Positions 381 through 30,573 of a DNA stretch of 30,573 nucleotides are shown piece after piece. The position numbers and the translations under genes are program-made. Source of the stretch: a virus; the IMG/VR virus record IMGVR_UViG_3300023118_000239, positions 1-30,573 of that record; one strand, 5' to 3'. The notes beneath the pieces were generated by a model. That model had not been told where the DNA came from, did not search any database, and worked only from the letters and a program-made list of their open reading frames with translations. Each line of letters starts with the position of its first letter. The stretch's first letter is position 1.

Positions 381-887
381 TTACCGAGCCAAAGCCCTGA
401 CGTACGCCTGGCATGCCCGCAGCGCTATCAGTCCTTGGTCGCCGGCATCGGTGATGGCGATAATTCGTTGAGCATGCGCTGGGTCAAGTTGGGCTCTACG
501 GGCTGCATGAACCACGCCGATGGTGCCGGGGGCGGCAGGCACGTTGCAGCCAGATGCTGTATCCGAGGCGTCGAGAAGGACTGACAGCCGCACATCAGCA
601 GTGGCAAGGCGATCACGTAGAGCAGCCTGGTTACGTTGGGCATTGGATAGCTCCAGGGAGTGTTGTTGATCTTGGCCCACCAGTCGTTGCTCCAGGGCCA
701 AACGCCTATCGGTAGCGTCTTTTTCTTGCTTGGCAGCTGCCGCGCTGATCAGATTCAAATCTTCCTGGAACAGACCGGCCTGCCTGGCGACGATTCCGTC
801 ATAGCGCCAGTCCTGCACCTTCCATGTCGAAAAACAAGCAATCGCCATCGCCACAAGCACGCAAGCCAGATTCTGCACTGGCGTCAT
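381..887 (-). CDS. Rz: Rz-like inner-membrane spanin, prophage 1
   Basis: This 168-residue i-spanin is the inner-membrane half of the spanin pair, which disrupts the outer membrane in the last step of phage lysis. Residues about 5-20 form one hydrophobic N-terminal anchor. A long charged and glutamine-rich helical region follows (about 35-95), then a cysteine-containing C-terminal part. The ATG at 887 is chosen because it overlaps the endolysin stop (ATGA) and begins the anchor; the open frame runs further upstream but there only mirrors the endolysin gene. Rz1 lies inside it in another frame. Prophage 2 carries a close relative at 27284. Confidence 0.85.
   Translation of the reverse strand: MTPVQNLACVLVAMAIACFSTWKVQDWRYDGIVARQAGLFQEDLNLISAAAAKQEKDATDRRLALEQRLVGQDQQHSLELSNAQRNQAALRDRLATADVRLSVLLDASDTASGCNVPAAPGTIGVVHAARRAQLDPAHAQRIIAITDAGDQGLIALRACQAYVRALAR
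428..643 (-). CDS. Rz1: Rz1-like outer-membrane spanin lipoprotein, nested in Rz
   Basis: This 71-residue o-spanin is encoded entirely inside Rz in a different frame. It has a short hydrophobic signal peptide and a lipobox L-M-C-G-C, with the lipidated cysteine at about residue 20. A short proline-rich segment (CLPPPAPSAW) follows, as expected for Rz1. The mature lipoprotein should sit in the outer membrane and contact Rz across the periplasm. The start is ATG at 643. Nested Rz/Rz1 pairs are typical of lambda-like phages, and the same arrangement recurs at 27337. Confidence 0.85.
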   Translation of the reverse strand: MPNVTRLLYVIALPLLMCGCQSFSTPRIQHLAATCLPPPAPSAWFMQPVEPNLTQRMLNELSPSPMPATKD

Positions 888-1417
888 GCAAGCACCTTCA
901 GCGCTTTGTCGTACAAAGCCTGCCGGTCGTCCTGCCCGGTGAGTCCACCATTGATGCGCCGGGTGATCTTCACGAACTGCCCCTGATCCGCCAAAGTGTT
1001 CAACCCACGGGTTGACCAGAACCACGCCGCCGACATCGTAGCGTGCTGTGGCAACTCCAATAACTCGGGCCGTGCGATCAAGTCGAGGCCCAGTGCTTCG
1101 CCGCATGCGGTGTAGTTCGCCCGGCCAGTGACTTGGATCAGGCCGCGCCCACGGTACTTGGAGCCATCCCCCTTCTCGGCATTGCCCAGGTCGGACCGGC
1201 CCTCATAGCCAGCTTGCTGCGTCGTTGGACCCCAAATTTCACGAACATGGCGCAACTGGGCCGACTCGTGCCCAACCTGAGCGATGAATGCGGCGACACG
1301 TAGTTGGCCGACGATCCCGTAGCGGCTCATGGCCGTGTTCAACACAGGAACAAAAACGCCCGCGACTTGGCGGGCGTTGGGAAGAATTTGCAGCAACTGC
1401 TGCTGGGTAATAGCCAT
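884..1417 (-). CDS. GH19-family endolysin
   Basis: This 177-residue phage lysozyme has the chitinase-19 fold and is predicted to cut the glycan backbone of peptidoglycan. The G-H-E-S motif holds the likely catalytic Glu51, with Glu60 a second candidate, and GRGLIQVTGR (90-99) is the family hallmark. No signal peptide is present, so release would need a holin, which I do not see nearby. The start ATG at 1417 follows the Shine-Dalgarno TAGGAGCT; the longer open frame upstream lacks homology. Its stop overlaps the Rz start. A strong terminator-like hairpin lies within codons 14-21. In prophage 2 this enzyme is replaced by a lambda-R-type lysozyme. Confidence 0.85.
   Translation of the reverse strand: MAITQQQLLQILPNARQVAGVFVPVLNTAMSRYGIVGQLRVAAFIAQVGHESAQLRHVREIWGPTTQQAGYEGRSDLGNAEKGDGSKYRGRGLIQVTGRANYTACGEALGLDLIARPELLELPQHATMSAAWFWSTRGLNTLADQGQFVKITRRINGGLTGQDDRQALYDKALKVLA
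1352..1378 (-). terminator. Intrinsic-terminator-like hairpin inside the endolysin gene
   Basis: On the minus strand AACGCCCGC pairs perfectly with GCGGGCGTT (nine base pairs) around CAAGTC, and the stem runs into TTTTTGTT. It lies within codons 14-21 of the GH19 gene. The structure meets the normal criteria for rho-independent termination. In a late operon it would be passed only by antiterminated or closely translated transcription. Confidence 0.5.
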
Positions 1418-2540: not shown

Positions 2541-2560
2541 AAACCCCGCACTGGGCGGGC
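2541..2560 (-). terminator. Terminator-like hairpin between X and D
   Basis: On the minus strand CCCGC and GCGGG pair around CCAGT and are followed by GTTTTATT. The same stem on the plus strand is followed by CTTTAGG. It sits in the 93-base gap between genes X and D. The motif CCCGC-ACTkG-GCGGG recurs at 28407 and, extended, at 1355. Confidence 0.5.
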
Positions 2561-2824: not shown

Positions 2825-3644
2825 AGCGCACAAACTCCAAGGTAAACGCCTGTTTGCGCGGGATTCCGCCCTGCATCAGTGCGCTTTGGTCTTCGTCAAT
2901 GGTCTTGAGGCACCAGGTGCCCAGCACCACGCCATAGCCCGTGGTGAGGGTCACCGGCTTGAGCTGGGATCCTATTGAGCGCAGCGTGTTGAGCTGTTCC
3001 AGCCCGCCCCGGTAGCCTGGGAAAATATCGCCCTTAAGCGTGATTTTCTCGTCACCCATGCCCACGGCCTGCTGGGCCGAACGGCGCGTCAGGCGCTCCT
3101 GGGAGGCCCATCGGTATTCGGTCGAGCGGCGCAGCGAATCAAAGGCCGCCGTATCAAGGTTGAAGTAATACGGCTGCGCCTTTGGGTCCAGCGACTGAAT
3201 AATCAGCAGATGGGGGAAAGGCTTCACCGCCTCTTTCGCCGGCGTGCCGTTCGTGGCAAACGCACCGGTCGGCAGGATGTTGGCCAGCGACGGGTCAATC
3301 TTGCCGGCGATCTTGTTGATCGCCGTAGCCGCCCGGCTGGCCTGCTCCTTCAGCGTGCCCAGGCGCTCGTCAATCTGCGACAGGGCGCGAGTTGCACGGT
3401 TATAGGTGGCCACCACCTGGCCAACCTTGGCCTGGGCAGTGGCAATGCCGCGCATGACTCGCTGAAGTTTTTCCCCCACGGCCGGGCCAATAAACGGCAG
3501 ATCCTCCAGTTCATTGGCCGCGCCGGTGATTTCGCTGATCGCCCCGTTTACCGGTCCAATCACCCCATCGATACTGCGCCGGCCCGCCTCACCTGCCGAG
3601 GCCAGGTATTTCAGGCCGGACTGTAGCTGTGCCAGTGATTCCAT
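2799..3644 (-). CDS. U: P2 gpU-like tail protein with long N-terminal extension
   Basis: In this 281-residue protein the last 130 or so residues match the gpU family, a tail terminator or completion protein. Key features are F-P-H-L-L-I-I-Q-S-L, YRWASQERL, and the ending Q-A-F-T-L-E-F-x-R-Y-G-D-D. The first 120 residues are helical and rich in alanine and glycine, and look like a coiled spacer fused to the domain. The ATG at 3644 follows a GGGG ribosome-binding stretch. The gene lies nine bases after the tape-measure remnant, whose C-terminus would normally precede U. Confidence 0.8.
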   Translation of the reverse strand: MESLAQLQSGLKYLASAGEAGRRSIDGVIGPVNGAISEITGAANELEDLPFIGPAVGEKLQRVMRGIATAQAKVGQVVATYNRATRALSQIDERLGTLKEQASRAATAINKIAGKIDPSLANILPTGAFATNGTPAKEAVKPFPHLLIIQSLDPKAQPYYFNLDTAAFDSLRRSTEYRWASQERLTRRSAQQAVGMGDEKITLKGDIFPGYRGGLEQLNTLRSIGSQLKPVTLTTGYGVVLGTWCLKTIDEDQSALMQGGIPRKQAFTLEFVRYGDDMQNI

Positions 3645-26340: not shown

Positions 26341-27135
26341 CTAGAAAAGTTGACCTAAGCTCGCTGTCTGCCAGTTTATGATCACCAGCTCGCCGCTGAC
26401 TTCAGCCTTACATTGGCGCTGATTCGTGTTGCTGTAGCGAATGTCCAAGGTCTCGAAATGGAAGCCTTCGAACACGCGGCGGATGTCCGGGTGGTCATTG
26501 ATGCTGGACATCACCTTGCCTTTGCAGCGGCGCATGAAGCCGGCCATTCGTTCATAGTTCTCGAATGGAAAGTCCACGCCATAGCCGGCGGTCTGCCAGT
26601 AAGGCGGATCCATGTAATGAAAGGTGTGAGCACGGTCGTAGCGTTCAGCGCATTCAAGCCATGGGAGGTTTTCAACGTAGGTGCCAGACAGGCGCTGCCA
26701 GGCGGCCGAAAGGTTTTCCTCGATTCGCAGCAGGTTGATCGCCGGGCCGGTGGTTGCGGTACCAAACGTCTGCCCGGTGACCTTGCCAGCGAAGGCATGG
26801 TGGTGCAGGTAGAAGAATCGCGCGGCGCGCTGGATGTCGGTGAGGGTTTCAGGGCGGGTCATCTTCTGCCACTCGAACACCTGGCGGGAGCTGAGCGCCC
26901 ATTTGAACTGACGCACGAATTCTTCCAGGTGGTTCTGCACGACGCGGTACAGCGTCACCAGGTCGCCGTTGATGTCGTTTAGGACTTCAACCGGCGCGGC
27001 CTGGGGACGCATGAAGTAGAGCGCGGCGCCGCCGGCAAAGACTTCGACGTAGCATTCGTGGGGTGGGAAGAGCGGGATAAGGCGGTCGGCCAGGCGGCGT
27101 TTGCCTCCCATCCAAGGGATGATGGGTGTGGACAT
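26341..27135 (-). CDS. Phage Dam-like DNA adenine methylase
   Basis: This 264-residue N6-adenine methyltransferase of the D12 class has W-M-G-G-K-R (8-13), the SAM-binding F-A-G-G-A-A (33-38) and the catalytic D-P-P-Y (176-179). GATC is the commonest target of this class but cannot be deduced here. ATG 27135 is used; a TTG lies three codons upstream. The gene is last in the late-gene direction after Rz, but it has its own LexA box only 17 bases upstream of the start, so it is probably separately SOS-controlled. Methylation may protect phage DNA from host restriction. Confidence 0.88.
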   Translation of the reverse strand: MSTPIIPWMGGKRRLADRLIPLFPPHECYVEVFAGGAALYFMRPQAAPVEVLNDINGDLVTLYRVVQNHLEEFVRQFKWALSSRQVFEWQKMTRPETLTDIQRAARFFYLHHHAFAGKVTGQTFGTATTGPAINLLRIEENLSAAWQRLSGTYVENLPWLECAERYDRAHTFHYMDPPYWQTAGYGVDFPFENYERMAGFMRRCKGKVMSSINDHPDIRRVFEGFHFETLDIRYSNTNQRQCKAEVSGELVIINWQTASLGQLF

Positions 27136-27152
27136 ATAAAGCAAGACCTTTG

Positions 27153-27168
27153 CTGTATGGATAAACAG
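27153..27168 (-). promoter_or_regulatory. LexA box upstream of the phage methylase
   Basis: CTGTATGGATAAACAG has the exact CTGT-N8-ACAG frame. It ends 17 bases before the methylase ATG, with AAAGG as ribosome-binding site between them. Its position should block any promoter firing into the methylase gene. The remaining stretch to 27283 contains a bulged hairpin (GCTCC-GCTT ... AAGC-A-GGAGC, about 27179-27205) and no gene. Confidence 0.7.
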
Positions 27169-27283
27169 TTCTAGGCTCGCTCCGCTTTGTGCACGAAGCA
27201 GGAGCCTTGGCTGGACTTGCAGGGACGTTCTGCGGGGAAGGTGGCCGGATTGGATGTTGACGCATCCTGCCCGGCCGCTCCTT

Positions 27284-27796
27284 TTACTTCTGTGTAGAGA
27301 CTTCTTTTGCGTAGGCCTGACAGGCCCGCAGGGCGATTAATCCTTGGTCCCCGTCACTGGTGATGGCGAGAATTCGTTGAGCATGCGCTGGGTCAAGTTG
27401 GGCTCGCGCGGCTCCATGAACCACGCCGACGGCGCCGGGGGTGGCAGGCACGTTGCAGCCACTGGCTGAATCCGCGGCGTCGAGAAGGACTGACAGCCGG
27501 ACATCAGAAGTGGCAAGGCGATCGCGCAGAACAGCCTGGTTGCGTTGAGCATCGGATAACTCCCTAGTGTGCTGCTGGTCCTGGCCGGCGAGCTGCTGCT
27601 CCAGGGCTAGGCGCTTGTCCTGCTCAACGCGCGCTTGGGCGGCGGCAGCATTGGTGATCGCTGCCAGGTCATCCTTGTGCAGGCCGGCCTGCTCGGCGTA
27701 CTTCTTGCCCATCCGCCAGCCCTGCACATGCCAGGTGCCTGCGGCGCTGACAGCCATCGCTATCAGGATCGCGCCCATAATCTGCCAGGGCGTCAC
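27284..27796 (-). CDS. Rz: Rz-like inner-membrane spanin, prophage 2
   Basis: This 170-residue i-spanin closely resembles the copy at 381: one N-terminal anchor (about 5-22), then a helical periplasmic region with the shared A-L-E-Q-x-L-x-G-Q-D-Q-Q-H. The start is GTG 27796, overlapping the endolysin stop (GTGA). Rz1 is nested inside. The C-terminus (I-A-L-R-A-C-Q-A-Y) is shared with prophage 1. It completes the lysis cassette with the endolysin upstream. Confidence 0.85.
   Translation of the reverse strand: MTPWQIMGAILIAMAVSAAGTWHVQGWRMGKKYAEQAGLHKDDLAAITNAAAAQARVEQDKRLALEQQLAGQDQQHTRELSDAQRNQAVLRDRLATSDVRLSVLLDAADSASGCNVPATPGAVGVVHGAARAQLDPAHAQRILAITSDGDQGLIALRACQAYAKEVSTQK
27337..27552 (-). 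CDS. Rz1: Rz1-like spanin lipoprotein, prophage 2
   Basis: This 71-residue lipoprotein is nested in Rz in another frame. It has a signal peptide with lipobox L-M-S-G-C (lipidated cysteine at about 20) and the proline-rich CLPPPAPSAWF. The length is identical to the prophage 1 copy, with few substitutions. It is expected in the outer membrane, contacting Rz. Confidence 0.85.
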   Translation of the reverse strand: MLNATRLFCAIALPLLMSGCQSFSTPRIQPVAATCLPPPAPSAWFMEPREPNLTQRMLNEFSPSPVTGTKD

Positions 27797-28302
27797 GACA
27801 TCACCCCGCCCGCCAGCCGGTACTGCTTCAGCAGATCATCCAGGGGGTGTTCGCGCTGCCCGTATCCCGCGCCGGGCAGGCTGGCCCAGATGTTCCTGCA
27901 CTTCGCGATAGCCGTTTCGATCCGCCCGGCCACCACGTCGGGCAACGCCCGGCACTCGCGGATGTGCTGCAGCGCCAGAAGATCTTGGCTGATAGGGCTG
28001 AAGTCCGACAGATTGAGCAGCGCCTTGTAGTGCGGCCAGTCCTTCAGCATCTGCTGGTATCGGCCGGAAGCATTGGACGTCAACCCCTTGCTGTTGATGA
28101 CCTTCGATGCGCGCCCCTTGGCGAACGGGTGATCTGTGAAGTCCTTGAAGACCTCGGGCTTACGATCGGCGCCGGTGACGATCACGTCGTAACCATCCAT
28201 GGCAGTGGCCGGAGATGTGCTGGTGCCCTCGCCCCAGGCGAGCATGTCCAGGAATGCCAACGCGTTACGGCCGCCGGCGAGCGATTCGGAAAGTCGTGCC
28301 AT
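27793..28302 (-). CDS. Lambda-R-type endolysin (GH104-like transglycosylase)
   Basis: This 169-residue cytosolic endolysin is similar to lambda gpR, a lytic transglycosylase. Shared features are A-F-L-D-M-L-A-W-x-E-G-T (catalytic Glu25), G-Y-D-V-I-V-x-G, G-R-Y-Q, DFSPxSQD and the ending N-I-W-A-S-L-P-G-A-G-Y-G-Q. ATG 28302 shares a base with the TAA of an upstream 27-codon leader ORF (TAATG). The Shine-Dalgarno TGGAGAA lies inside that leader. It occupies the slot held by a GH19 enzyme in prophage 1. Confidence 0.9.
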   Translation of the reverse strand: MARLSESLAGGRNALAFLDMLAWGEGTSTSPATAMDGYDVIVTGADRKPEVFKDFTDHPFAKGRASKVINSKGLTSNASGRYQQMLKDWPHYKALLNLSDFSPISQDLLALQHIRECRALPDVVAGRIETAIAKCRNIWASLPGAGYGQREHPLDDLLKQYRLAGGVMS

Positions 28303-28385
28303 TACATTTCTCCAGGCAAAAAAATACCGGCTCGAGGGCCGGCGTTCGGGAGGATCTGCAGCAACTGCTGCTGGGTGATGGTCAT
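28302..28385 (-). CDS. Leader ORF left from a GH19 endolysin start
   Basis: This 27-residue ORF begins MTITQQQLLQILPNAG, nearly identical to the first residues of the prophage 1 endolysin (MAITQQQLLQILPNAR). It then diverges within a hairpin and ends at a TAA overlapping the lambda-R-type endolysin start. The same ribosome-binding site (AGGAGCT) is conserved. It appears to be the fossil 5' end of the replaced gene, possibly retained as a coupling leader. Confidence 0.65.
   Translation of the reverse strand: MTITQQQLLQILPNAGPRAGIFLPGEM
28317..28342 (-). terminator. Terminator-like hairpin in the leader ORF
   Basis: On the minus strand CCGGC pairs with GCCGG around CCTCGA and is followed by TATTTTTTTG. 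It occupies the same place as the hairpin in the prophage 1 endolysin gene, although the stem sequence differs. Confidence 0.5.
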
Positions 28386-28406
28386 ACAAGCTCCTAAAAT
28401 GAGTGG

Positions 28407-28421
28407 CCCGCACTTGGCGGG
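28407..28421. other. CCCGC-ACTTG-GCGGG hairpin between gpD and endolysin
   Basis: This is a five-base-pair stem around ACTTG in the 54-base gap between the gpD remnant and the leader ORF. On the minus strand it is followed by CCACTCATTTT, so termination would be weak. It belongs to the same hairpin family as 2545-2559. Confidence 0.45.
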
Positions 28422-28439
28422 GGTTGTGGTGCGCGACCG

Positions 28440-28850
28440 CTACGCCAGGCTGACGACTTTGACTGGCTTAGCGGCTTTCTTCGTTTTCTTGCCTTTGGCT
28501 TTGGCCTTGCCCTTTTTGCCGCCGTTGCACTCAACGGTGGTGGACCAGCCGGCTTGGGTAAATGTCTGCTCCACCGAATCCACCAGGTACTCGCCATCGA
28601 GCCCCACCTTAAAGCCCTGGGCATTGATAGAGCGCTCCGCGAATAGGTCCGTGCGCCCTGGCATTTCCAGACGCACACCGGCCGTGGAGCGGTTGAACGC
28701 CGCCAAACGGGCTTTAGCCGCTGACTCGGCGGCGGTCTTGTTCGGGTGAATATGGCGATCGGTGTGCACCGCCGGCAGGCCATCCGGCACGTCGTCATTC
28801 TCCAGGGAGACCACCGACAACTTGCCTGTCTTTTTGTCCTGATGCTTGCG
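28440..28850 (-). pseudogene. 3' part of a gpD-like tail gene
   Basis: This encodes about 135 C-terminal residues of gpD. It differs from the intact prophage 1 protein at four positions (Asp/Glu, Asp/Pro, Leu/Val, Asp/Ala), including in the lysine-rich tail. At about 28848 the match stops and, going upstream, portal sequence begins in a different frame. The N-terminal two thirds are lost. A longer open frame to 28925 is just portal DNA read out of frame. It should not encode a working hub protein. Confidence 0.8.
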
Positions 28851-29676
28851 GCCCAGCTTCCGGAGCTGGCCGTTTGATGAAGCCGGCAAACAGGTTCGCC
28901 ACCTCCTGACGGAACAGCACCGCATCGTCGTAGTTGTCCAGACTGCGCAGCCGTTTCAGCACCGGCGCCAAGCGAGGTACGCCACGCAGTTGCCCCGGCT
29001 CCATCGGCTCGAAAATATGCAGCACCTGCGCAGCTGGCACACGCACCAGCTGGTTGTAACCAGCGTTCAACGACGACGAGTCGCGGGGATGCGATAGGTA
29101 CATCCAATACGCCACGCGCTTGCCGGCCGGGTTAAACTCGATTCCGGCGCGAATCACGTTGCCGTTCTTGGCGGCTTCGAACTTATCGTGCGGGACAAAC
29201 TCAGGGGCCAGCGCTTGCAACTGCAGCGGTACCGCCAAGCCTTCGCCCGGACTGCGCGGCCGCAATCGCACAAAGCATTCACCGGCAGTTTCGACGGTGC
29301 GGGCCACAAGGGCCTGCATGCCGTAGAAGTCGGTCAGCTCATCGGCGTCTGCTTCATCCACCCAGTCGTCCCACAGCTGCTGCTGGAGTTTGCGCAGTCC
29401 GGCATCGTCGGTGGTCGGCCTGGGCGTGATCCCCGTGCCGATCAGGTTGCTGACGCGTTTGTCTATGACGTTGAAGGCGTACGGGTCATTGCGCACCGCC
29501 GCCCGCGAACGTGCCCGCAGGTTGCGTAGTGCCGGGGTGTTGATGCTGTTGATGCCGTTGTCGGTGGCTTCCCAACTGGCCGAACGTCGGCCCTCCCCGG
29601 CGCCTTCGTAACTGGCCTTGATGTTCGACGGCAGCAAGAATCCGTTACGGGTCAGCGTCGGATAGTGTCGGGCCAT
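28795..29676 (-). pseudogene. Truncated lambda-family portal gene
   Basis: The first 277 or so residues are a lambda-type portal protein, the vertex ring through which DNA enters the capsid. N-x-x-R-A-R-S-R-A-A-V-R-N-D-P-Y-A and the V-L-H-I-F-E-P-M-E-P-G-Q-L-R-G-V-P segment are family-typical. Lambda's portal has over 500 residues. After F-A-G-F-I-K the frame soon enters gpD DNA read out of phase and stops at 28795. The start overlaps the gpW-like stop (TAATG). Loss of the C-terminal half makes the prophage unable to package DNA unaided. Confidence 0.8.
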
Positions 29677-29882
29677 TAGAGTCCTTTGCCTCCGTGGGTA
29701 AGCCGCACCACGCGAGAGCGTGGCCCGGCGGCGTTGGTCAGCGACGTGCGGATCTCGTCGCGGGCCTTCAGCAGTTCGTCGATGGAGCGGTACTCCACCG
29801 TGCGGTCGCTATAGCGCACGGTCTTTTCACCGCGCGCAATGGCGCGCTCGATGGCATCGAGGTGCTTCGGGGTAAACGACAT
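29676..29882 (-). CDS. gpW-like head-tail joining protein
   Basis: This 68-residue protein resembles lambda gpW, which joins head to tail. It has a helical N-terminus (L-D-A-I-E-R-A-I-A-R-G), a beta hairpin (K-T-V-R-Y-S-D-R-T-V-E-Y) and a second helix (I-D-E-L-L-K-A-R-D-E-I). It lies between terminase and portal, as in lambda. The start is one base from the terminase stop, and the stop overlaps the portal start. It appears intact. Confidence 0.75.
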   Translation of the reverse strand: MSFTPKHLDAIERAIARGEKTVRYSDRTVEYRSIDELLKARDEIRTSLTNAAGPRSRVVRLTHGGKGL

Positions 29883-29883
29883 A

Positions 29884-30573
29884 TCAGCGTCTCTTCAGGT
29901 AACCACTTGTTGAACTGCGGCGTTGAGGGGGTGCAGCGGGTCGCGTTTGGGCGACCGGGGCAACGGGTTGCGGCGCTGGTTGCGGTATCACGGGAGCCTG
30001 CTCGGAGACCGTGACACGCTCGGCGGTGACCGCCTTTTCATCGAACAAGCCAGCCTGAGCCAGAGAGTTTCGTACCCGATCCCAGTCGTGTTCCTGATAC
30101 CGGTTGATGCCGAGGTAATGCGCCATTGCCAGGCAATACACCATCAGGTCGAGCGCTTCGTTGCGCTCGGCCTTGCCCTTAATCCACTCGATACGCTTGT
30201 GACCACGCACGTACTTAGCGACCTTTCGCTCGGCCACGCACTGGGCGAAGAACTCATCCGGCAGGTCGTTGGCAAAGTGCACCGCACCTGGGCCAGACTC
30301 AAACGGGTAGCGGTTGTAGATCCAGTCCTTCGCGGTGTCGGTACCGACAAACCACAGCTCCGCACCGCCGCGTTCGGTCTGCCCCTTCCAGGTCACATCA
30401 ACCATCGAAGGCCGCTGAGCGATCACCGGCTTGCCAGGCTTGCTCGCACCCTTGATGGCGAAAATGTTGCGCCAGCGTCGCACGCGGCAGAACTGATACA
30501 CCTCATCCGTGTGGTGACCACCGGAGTCGACAGCAACCGCAAGAATGCCCAGGCCAACGCCGCAAGGGTGCCG
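29884..30573 (-). CDS. Terminase large subunit, GpA family (C-terminal part, runs off the window)
   Basis: The visible 229 residues are the C-terminal nuclease half of a lambda gpA-type terminase. V-A-V-D-S-G-G-H-H-T-D-E-V-Y near the window edge carries the expected nuclease aspartate. A-L-D-L-M-V-Y-C-L-A-M-A-H-Y is the closing helix of the family. A proline-rich disordered tail follows. The frame is open to base 30573, so the ATPase half lies outside. It heads the packaging and head cluster of prophage 2. Confidence 0.85.
   Translation of the reverse strand, partial: RHPCGVGLGILAVAVDSGGHHTDEVYQFCRVRRWRNIFAIKGASKPGKPVIAQRPSMVDVTWKGQTERGGAELWFVGTDTAKDWIYNRYPFESGPGAVHFANDLPDEFFAQCVAERKVAKYVRGHKRIEWIKGKAERNEALDLMVYCLAMAHYLGINRYQEHDWDRVRNSLAQAGLFDEKAVTAERVTVSEQAPVIPQPAPQPVAPVAQTRPAAPPQRRSSTSGYLKRR

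Follow-up and report, generated by a model that had tools for sequence, protein, structure and literature searches.

Why does the beginning of one lysis enzyme stand as a short open reading frame (ORF) in front of the gene for another, with a terminator-like hairpin at the place where the two meet? The question is raised by prophage 2 in an IMG/VR virus record of 30,573 bases, which was analysed as a whole (hereafter the window, whose numbering is used throughout).

A GH19 gene start in front of a different endolysin

The ORF in question, the leader, translates as MTITQQQLLQILPNAGPRAGIFLPGEM followed by a stop. It lies among the following features of prophage 2, the short elements being read directly from the sequence:

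28407..28421, minus strand: degenerate CCCGCCAAGTGCGGG hairpin, 5′ of the leader
28391..28395, minus strand: leader ribosome-binding site (RBS), AGGAG
28302..28385, minus strand: leader ORF, 27 codons and TAA
28326..28343, minus strand: terminator-like hairpin GCCGGC-CCTCGA-GCCGGT, 6 pairs, loop CCTCGA
28318..28324, minus strand: tract of seven Ts, 3′ of the hairpin
28310..28313, minus strand: RBS of the GH104-type endolysin, GGAG, within the leader ORF
27793..28302, minus strand: endolysin of the GH104 / lambda R / P2 gpK type, 169 aa (phrog_90, 8e-57)
27284..27796, minus strand: Rz-type spanin (PF03245, 1e-05)
27337-27552: Rz1-like ORF from the ORF list, nested in the Rz-type spanin

Prophage 1 contributes two features to the comparison:

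884..1417, minus strand: GH19 endolysin, 177 aa (PF00182, 8.5e-11; phrog_181 endolysin, 3e-71)
1355..1378, minus strand: 9-bp hairpin AACGCCCGC-CAAGTC-GCGGGCGTT, then TTTGTT, in codons 14-23 of GH19

The leader carries the GH19 start motif MxITxQQLLQILPNA..AG.F in frame with its own Shine-Dalgarno (SD) sequence, and it aligns codon for codon with the GH19 genes of prophage 1 and of locus L321. The first-pass annotation had proposed that 14 GH19 codons survive together with their RBS. Survival is borne out, as is the AGGAG that the leader has in common with the prophage 1 gene (TTAGGAGCTYGTATG), but the length was underestimated: the GH19-like portion covers codons 1-24 (about 20-24 codons), since NAGPRAGIFLP is the GH19 motif itself (compare NAGPRAGIFLPALN in L321). 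The GH19 catalytic domain is absent after the leader; homology ends at the hairpin and a GH104-type gene follows, so the leader is not a GH19 enzyme. That next gene shares 64% identity with P2-like phage endolysins, one of which carries a GH104 annotation, and had no match in Pfam and NCBIfam searches. As described earlier, the seven Ts are found at 28324-28318 and the leader TAA overlaps the ATG of the lambda-R-type endolysin in TAATG at 28302, while the prophage 1 hairpin (9 bp, 1378-1355) occupies the same codons as that of the leader. The degenerate hairpin 5′ of the leader, compared with intact forms elsewhere, is probably a remnant of the hairpin that usually precedes such genes.

In the window, in prophage 1 and in GH19 genes, a G+C-rich stem is followed directly by a T-tract, the sequence pattern of an intrinsic terminator. 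The window hairpin is a weak example, with 6 pairs only. Its 40-nt fold does not differ from that of shuffles, and a terminator scan of the region returned 5 terminator-like sites against 3.8 +/- 1.7 in shuffles, no excess; that the hairpin stands above chance is therefore a matter of comparative evidence, not of the window hairpin alone. An Rfam scan of the whole window gave 0 matches above the gathering score, and the leader codons show no evident run of one regulatory codon apart from QQQ.

The window locus as a chimera

Homology to prophage 1 extends from the D-like gene across the intergenic stretch into the leader, where it ends at 28337. Homology to leaderless endolysin loci (L164, L009, L165, L003, L005) starts at 28333-28344 and continues through the endolysin, so that the hairpin (28343-28326) contains or borders both limits. 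On this comparison the window locus is a chimera, produced by a lysis-enzyme swap with its crossover in a shared element of hairpin and T-tract, which agrees with the swap proposed in the first-pass annotation. Loci L011-L014 carry the same leader and joint at 92-93% DNA identity (L011-L013 with an early stop), and the joint is therefore not an assembly artefact. The hairpin had been described as a different one, into which the leader runs; it is instead GH19's own conserved hairpin with a new 3′ flank. Import of the hairpin with the new enzyme is likewise rejected, as GH19 genes carry the hairpin themselves. The GCCTGGAGAAA block around the endolysin RBS is also found in leaderless relatives.

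A separate irregularity lies upstream. An ORF at 28795-29676 (minus strand) consists of a lambda-type portal gene fused out of frame, at ~28849, to the 3′ part of a D-like tail gene. The homology of L011-L014 to the window reaches only 28848, and no locus spans the portal/D-like junction. Probably, either prophage 2 has lost the genes between portal and D-like, or the record is chimeric at ~28849.

Recurrence of the joint

A leader unique to this strain is what the earlier annotation had named as the finding that would count against it, and this is not the case: leaders of this kind recur in further prophages, both with this endolysin type and with others. About 20 joint types, spread over four endolysin families, have a GH19 start that is joined to the new gene at the hairpin:

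before GH104-type genes: window, L014, L018, L050/L427, L193, L428
before GH24-type genes: L194, L268, L424, L210, L429, L458, L463, L465, L505, L455
before SleB-like genes: L198, L208, L211, L420
before phrog_873-type genes: L195, L201, L599

In the tabulated joints the new ATG lies 44-48 nt after the beginning of the hairpin. Together, these alignments show a chimeric locus whose joint recurs with four enzyme families. Such joints are uncommon: 75 of the 81 GH19 starts in 299 Pseudomonas genomes are intact genes, and when 399 genomes were scanned directly, 2 of them had joints, 3 in all. These joint scans are biased to the hairpin position, because they demanded an RBS near the hairpin; in scans free of this demand, truncated GH19 sequences run into other sequence mostly at or shortly after the hairpin, in small numbers.

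Homologous loci had been suggested as a check on whether different endolysin modules always join here. Four families do join at this hairpin. In L600 and L599, ~80 nt 5′ of the endolysin, the GH19 leader passes into a generic CCCGCC..GCGGG cassette shortly before it would reach the hairpin. That leader is still in frame and coupled, and marks a second crossover place beside the first.

Several other loci vary the arrangement. One genome (G061) has the same GH19 leader/GH104 joint at two places (L428 and L430). A leader lineage before GH24 genes (L421, L424, L426) has changed both AG dipeptides in codons 14-22 to AD (NADRRAD), so that the original stem is broken symmetrically; frame and coupling persist. 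In L052 (~2918-3000, 5′ of the endolysin) the leader start is unrelated (MARQARVYFCL), the NAG..AG hairpin is the same, and the leader stops 2 nt before the endolysin.

A conserved hairpin inside intact GH19 genes

Intact Pseudomonas GH19 genes of this type carry the hairpin within codons 14-22, nearly always with a 9-bp stem (226 genes), and 75 intact genes from the 299 Pseudomonas genomes agree. In a set of 144 GH19 genes, the segment N14-A15-[GRS]16-x-x-A19-G20-V21-F22 encodes the 9-bp stem, a 6-nt loop and the T-tract. Mean stem pairing in this set is 8.76 of 9, against 5.42 expected for codons sampled according to the codon usage of these genes. The T-tract is written in codons that are rare elsewhere in these genes: Val21 is GTT in 134/144 (10% elsewhere) and Phe22 is TTT in 135/144 (16% elsewhere).

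The two arms co-vary by codon, GGC, CGC or AGC at codon 16 pairing with GCC, GCG or GCT at Ala19. Across the 226 genes, the first base of codon 16 and the third base of Ala19 are GC in 173, CG in 36, AT in 9 and other in 8. A second variable pair, to which Asn14 contributes its last base and residue 21 its first (CG 212, TA 7), changes too rarely for contrasts on the tree. Sliding the partner by 1-3 positions lowers pairing from 98% to 22-62%, and changes on both sides number 42, compared with 0-8 in the slid controls and at most 13 in shuffles. On a tree built from the rest of the GH19 gene, 10 of 11 independent contrasts at codon 16/Ala19 (G-C vs C-G) co-vary and 0 are opposed (p=0.002). Exchange of hairpins en bloc could have inflated this figure; the loops CGCCAA and CCAGTT, however, each occur with both arm types, contrary to en-bloc exchange alone. 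Non-Watson-Crick pairs comprise 21 G.T and 7 A.C, an excess expected if selection acts on the sense RNA. Judged by the arm-to-arm codon covariation, the GH19 hairpin is under selection, and the earlier suggestion that hairpin and leader were merely kept at the joint falls short. A covarying terminator-like hairpin within the GH19 coding sequence, which is also the joint, is new beyond the first-pass annotation.

Distribution of the hairpin

The GH19 element is found in phages phiPSA1, MR13, KT1, Aurca01, PG1, JBD44, U6, PotUPM1, LPPA36 and Presto, and also in lys of a P. fluorescens tailocin (DVM-2008). Proteins with as little as about 46% identity still have it, the stem in U6 and LPPA36 being 6 bp long and followed by TTTTTT. 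Two GH19 genes of P. aeruginosa phages, whose N-terminus differs, lack it. A GH19 search in other Gammaproteobacteria gave few, distant matches, and other hosts were therefore compared on named phages: the hairpin is absent from GH19 of Achromobacter, Serratia, Salmonella, Klebsiella, Escherichia and Burkholderia phages and of one unassigned podovirus.

In the other endolysin families a hairpin stands before the gene. Within 70 nt of the start, 61/63 SleB-like, 57/78 GH104, 34/49 phrog_873 and 19/60 GH24 genes have a terminator-like hairpin; these counts are lower bounds, as GH24 loci from other hosts were included and for some phrog_873 genes the start was taken from the match and not from the true start. 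In the GH104, SleB-like and phrog_873 genes it stands just before the RBS, as it does in fewer GH24 genes, and 155/221 GH19 genes have an upstream hairpin in addition to their own. Similar blocks of hairpin and RBS precede tail-fibre, J and D-like genes at many loci, so a hairpin specific to lysis is rejected. The sequences suggest that terminator-like elements are scattered through the late operons of Pseudomonas phages and that the pre-gene form is general to late genes. One further block of hairpin, T-tract and RBS lies at 2545-2559 (minus strand) of the window.

Probable coupling of the leader to the new start

Translational coupling works best when stop and start are spaced by -4 to +3 nt (PMC12548453), and the window TAATG has the spacing of a coupled pair (about -4 to +3 nt). 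Among joint types, which were grouped by eye, about 16/21 have a leader stop no more than 4 nt from the new start. A first control of 25 cassettes, mostly GH104, was replaced by a larger leaderless one read in three frames, where 100/486 stops lie within -6 to +4 (~20% overall; 6-31% by family). With family-specific rates, the probability of at least 14/19 is about 1e-8, and 4e-4 under a deliberately generous chance of one-third; the joint types are not fully independent, as several coupled joints have blocks such as GGAGTTTGAC in common. Five leaders (L428, L429, L198, L208, L211) are uncoupled. The coupling that the first-pass annotation read from the position of stop and start thus gains statistical support, and the excess over the leaderless control favours functional coupling over a mere fossil, with the leader stop apparently placed for termination-reinitiation onto the new enzyme. 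The leader had been called a fossil, which is apt for the DNA remnant but not for the frame and stop; these look maintained in most lineages, and a few leaders (L011-L013, L602, L536) have decayed. The diverged leaders L441, L463, L599 and L052 keep both, which suggests selection on being an ORF and not on the peptide.

A proposed control element that doubles as a joint

The best explanation as a whole is, in our view, a conserved control element of terminator type at which lysis-enzyme swaps are also joined, and we hold it with moderate confidence. Most endolysin genes of Pseudomonas prophages bear a hairpin and T-tract element at their 5′ end. As the GH19 coding hairpin resembles the pre-gene hairpins, recombination there would replace the enzyme and leave the GH19 start as a short translated leader. 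The element itself may act as an intrinsic terminator that limits unscheduled transcription of the lysis genes and that is passed by antiterminated polymerase or by ribosomes closely behind the polymerase. Intrinsic terminators inside genes are known to be suppressed by translation (PMC5021804). In the chimera, a ribosome on the leader would hold the hairpin open and then hand over to the endolysin start. Both termination and coupling are inferred here from sequence patterns.

The strongest alternative, which we nevertheless find unlikely, is that ordinary Pseudomonas terminators share sequence by chance, that enzymes are swapped by homology, and that leader and coupling are neutral leftovers. 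A window crossover within a shared element, hairpins before non-lysis genes, decayed leaders (L602, L536) and the early stop of L011-L013 are what one would expect of it. It leaves unexplained the excess of coupled stops and the covarying codons that keep a coding hairpin in intact GH19 genes, a hairpin kept by P. aeruginosa phages and the P. fluorescens tailocin even where no T-tailed hairpin lies upstream.

Alternatively, the hairpin could act on translation or mRNA stability (i.e. as structure near the start codon, or as a processing or protective stem) and not on termination. Its position, 40-63 nt downstream of the ATG in GH19 and 20-45 nt upstream of the start in other endolysins, would suit such a role, as would the preference for sense-strand wobble pairs. 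A directional T-tract kept with the rare codons GTT and TTT is needed by an intrinsic terminator and not by an mRNA stem, and makes this reading rather improbable. A DNA-level inverted repeat, bound by a protein or used by a recombinase, would fit the near-perfect 9-bp dyad and the repeated crossovers there, and is very improbable given that pairing is retained although the arms vary, that the loop is free to vary, that the arms of pre-gene copies differ in sequence and that the wobble bias points to RNA.

Returning to the control element, its most specific form is that GH19 genes of Pseudomonas phages hold a translation-gated intrinsic terminator in their first 23 codons, kept by synonymous covariation and doubling as a universal lysis-enzyme joint with a translated, coupled leader. 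This we offer tentatively, as a possibility somewhat short of an even chance. A literature search found no direct report of an intragenic terminator in endolysin genes, most subscription journals being outside its coverage. If true, this would be a remarkably clear example of dual coding, with a stem kept by codon choice in >200 phage genes, and would supply a concrete and testable mechanism by which temperate phages hold their lysis genes silent and exchange lysis enzymes under continued control. In endolysin engineering, expression may change if the first 23 codons of GH19 are recoded synonymously.

Comparison with known systems

Promoter early stem-loops (PeSLs) are reportedly mobile regulatory cassettes of T4-type phages. 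They resemble the element here in that stem-loop regulatory cassettes form joints for module shuffling. A PeSL carries a promoter between its stem-loops; here, a search of 26400-30573 found no sigma-70-like promoter, and the GH19 version is coding sequence.

The start-associated and extended start-associated sequences of cluster K mycobacteriophages likewise place inverted repeats and a ribosome-binding motif just before selected gene starts (PMC3203893). Theirs are fixed 13-bp repeats with 17-bp inverted repeats, whereas the element described here is a T-tract hairpin with variable arms. Known cases of termination-reinitiation coupling share a stop and start that overlap or lie a few nt apart, with the SD inside the upstream ORF (PMC12548453), but the upstream ORF here is a truncated enzyme start bearing a terminator-like hairpin.

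In the alpBCDE self-lysis system of P. aeruginosa, AlpA lets polymerase bypass intrinsic terminators just upstream of the lysis genes (PMC7969949). As here, intrinsic terminators are placed immediately 5′ of Pseudomonas lysis genes, to be bypassed; the element that we describe differs in lying inside the GH19 reading frame or being joined to a leader ORF.
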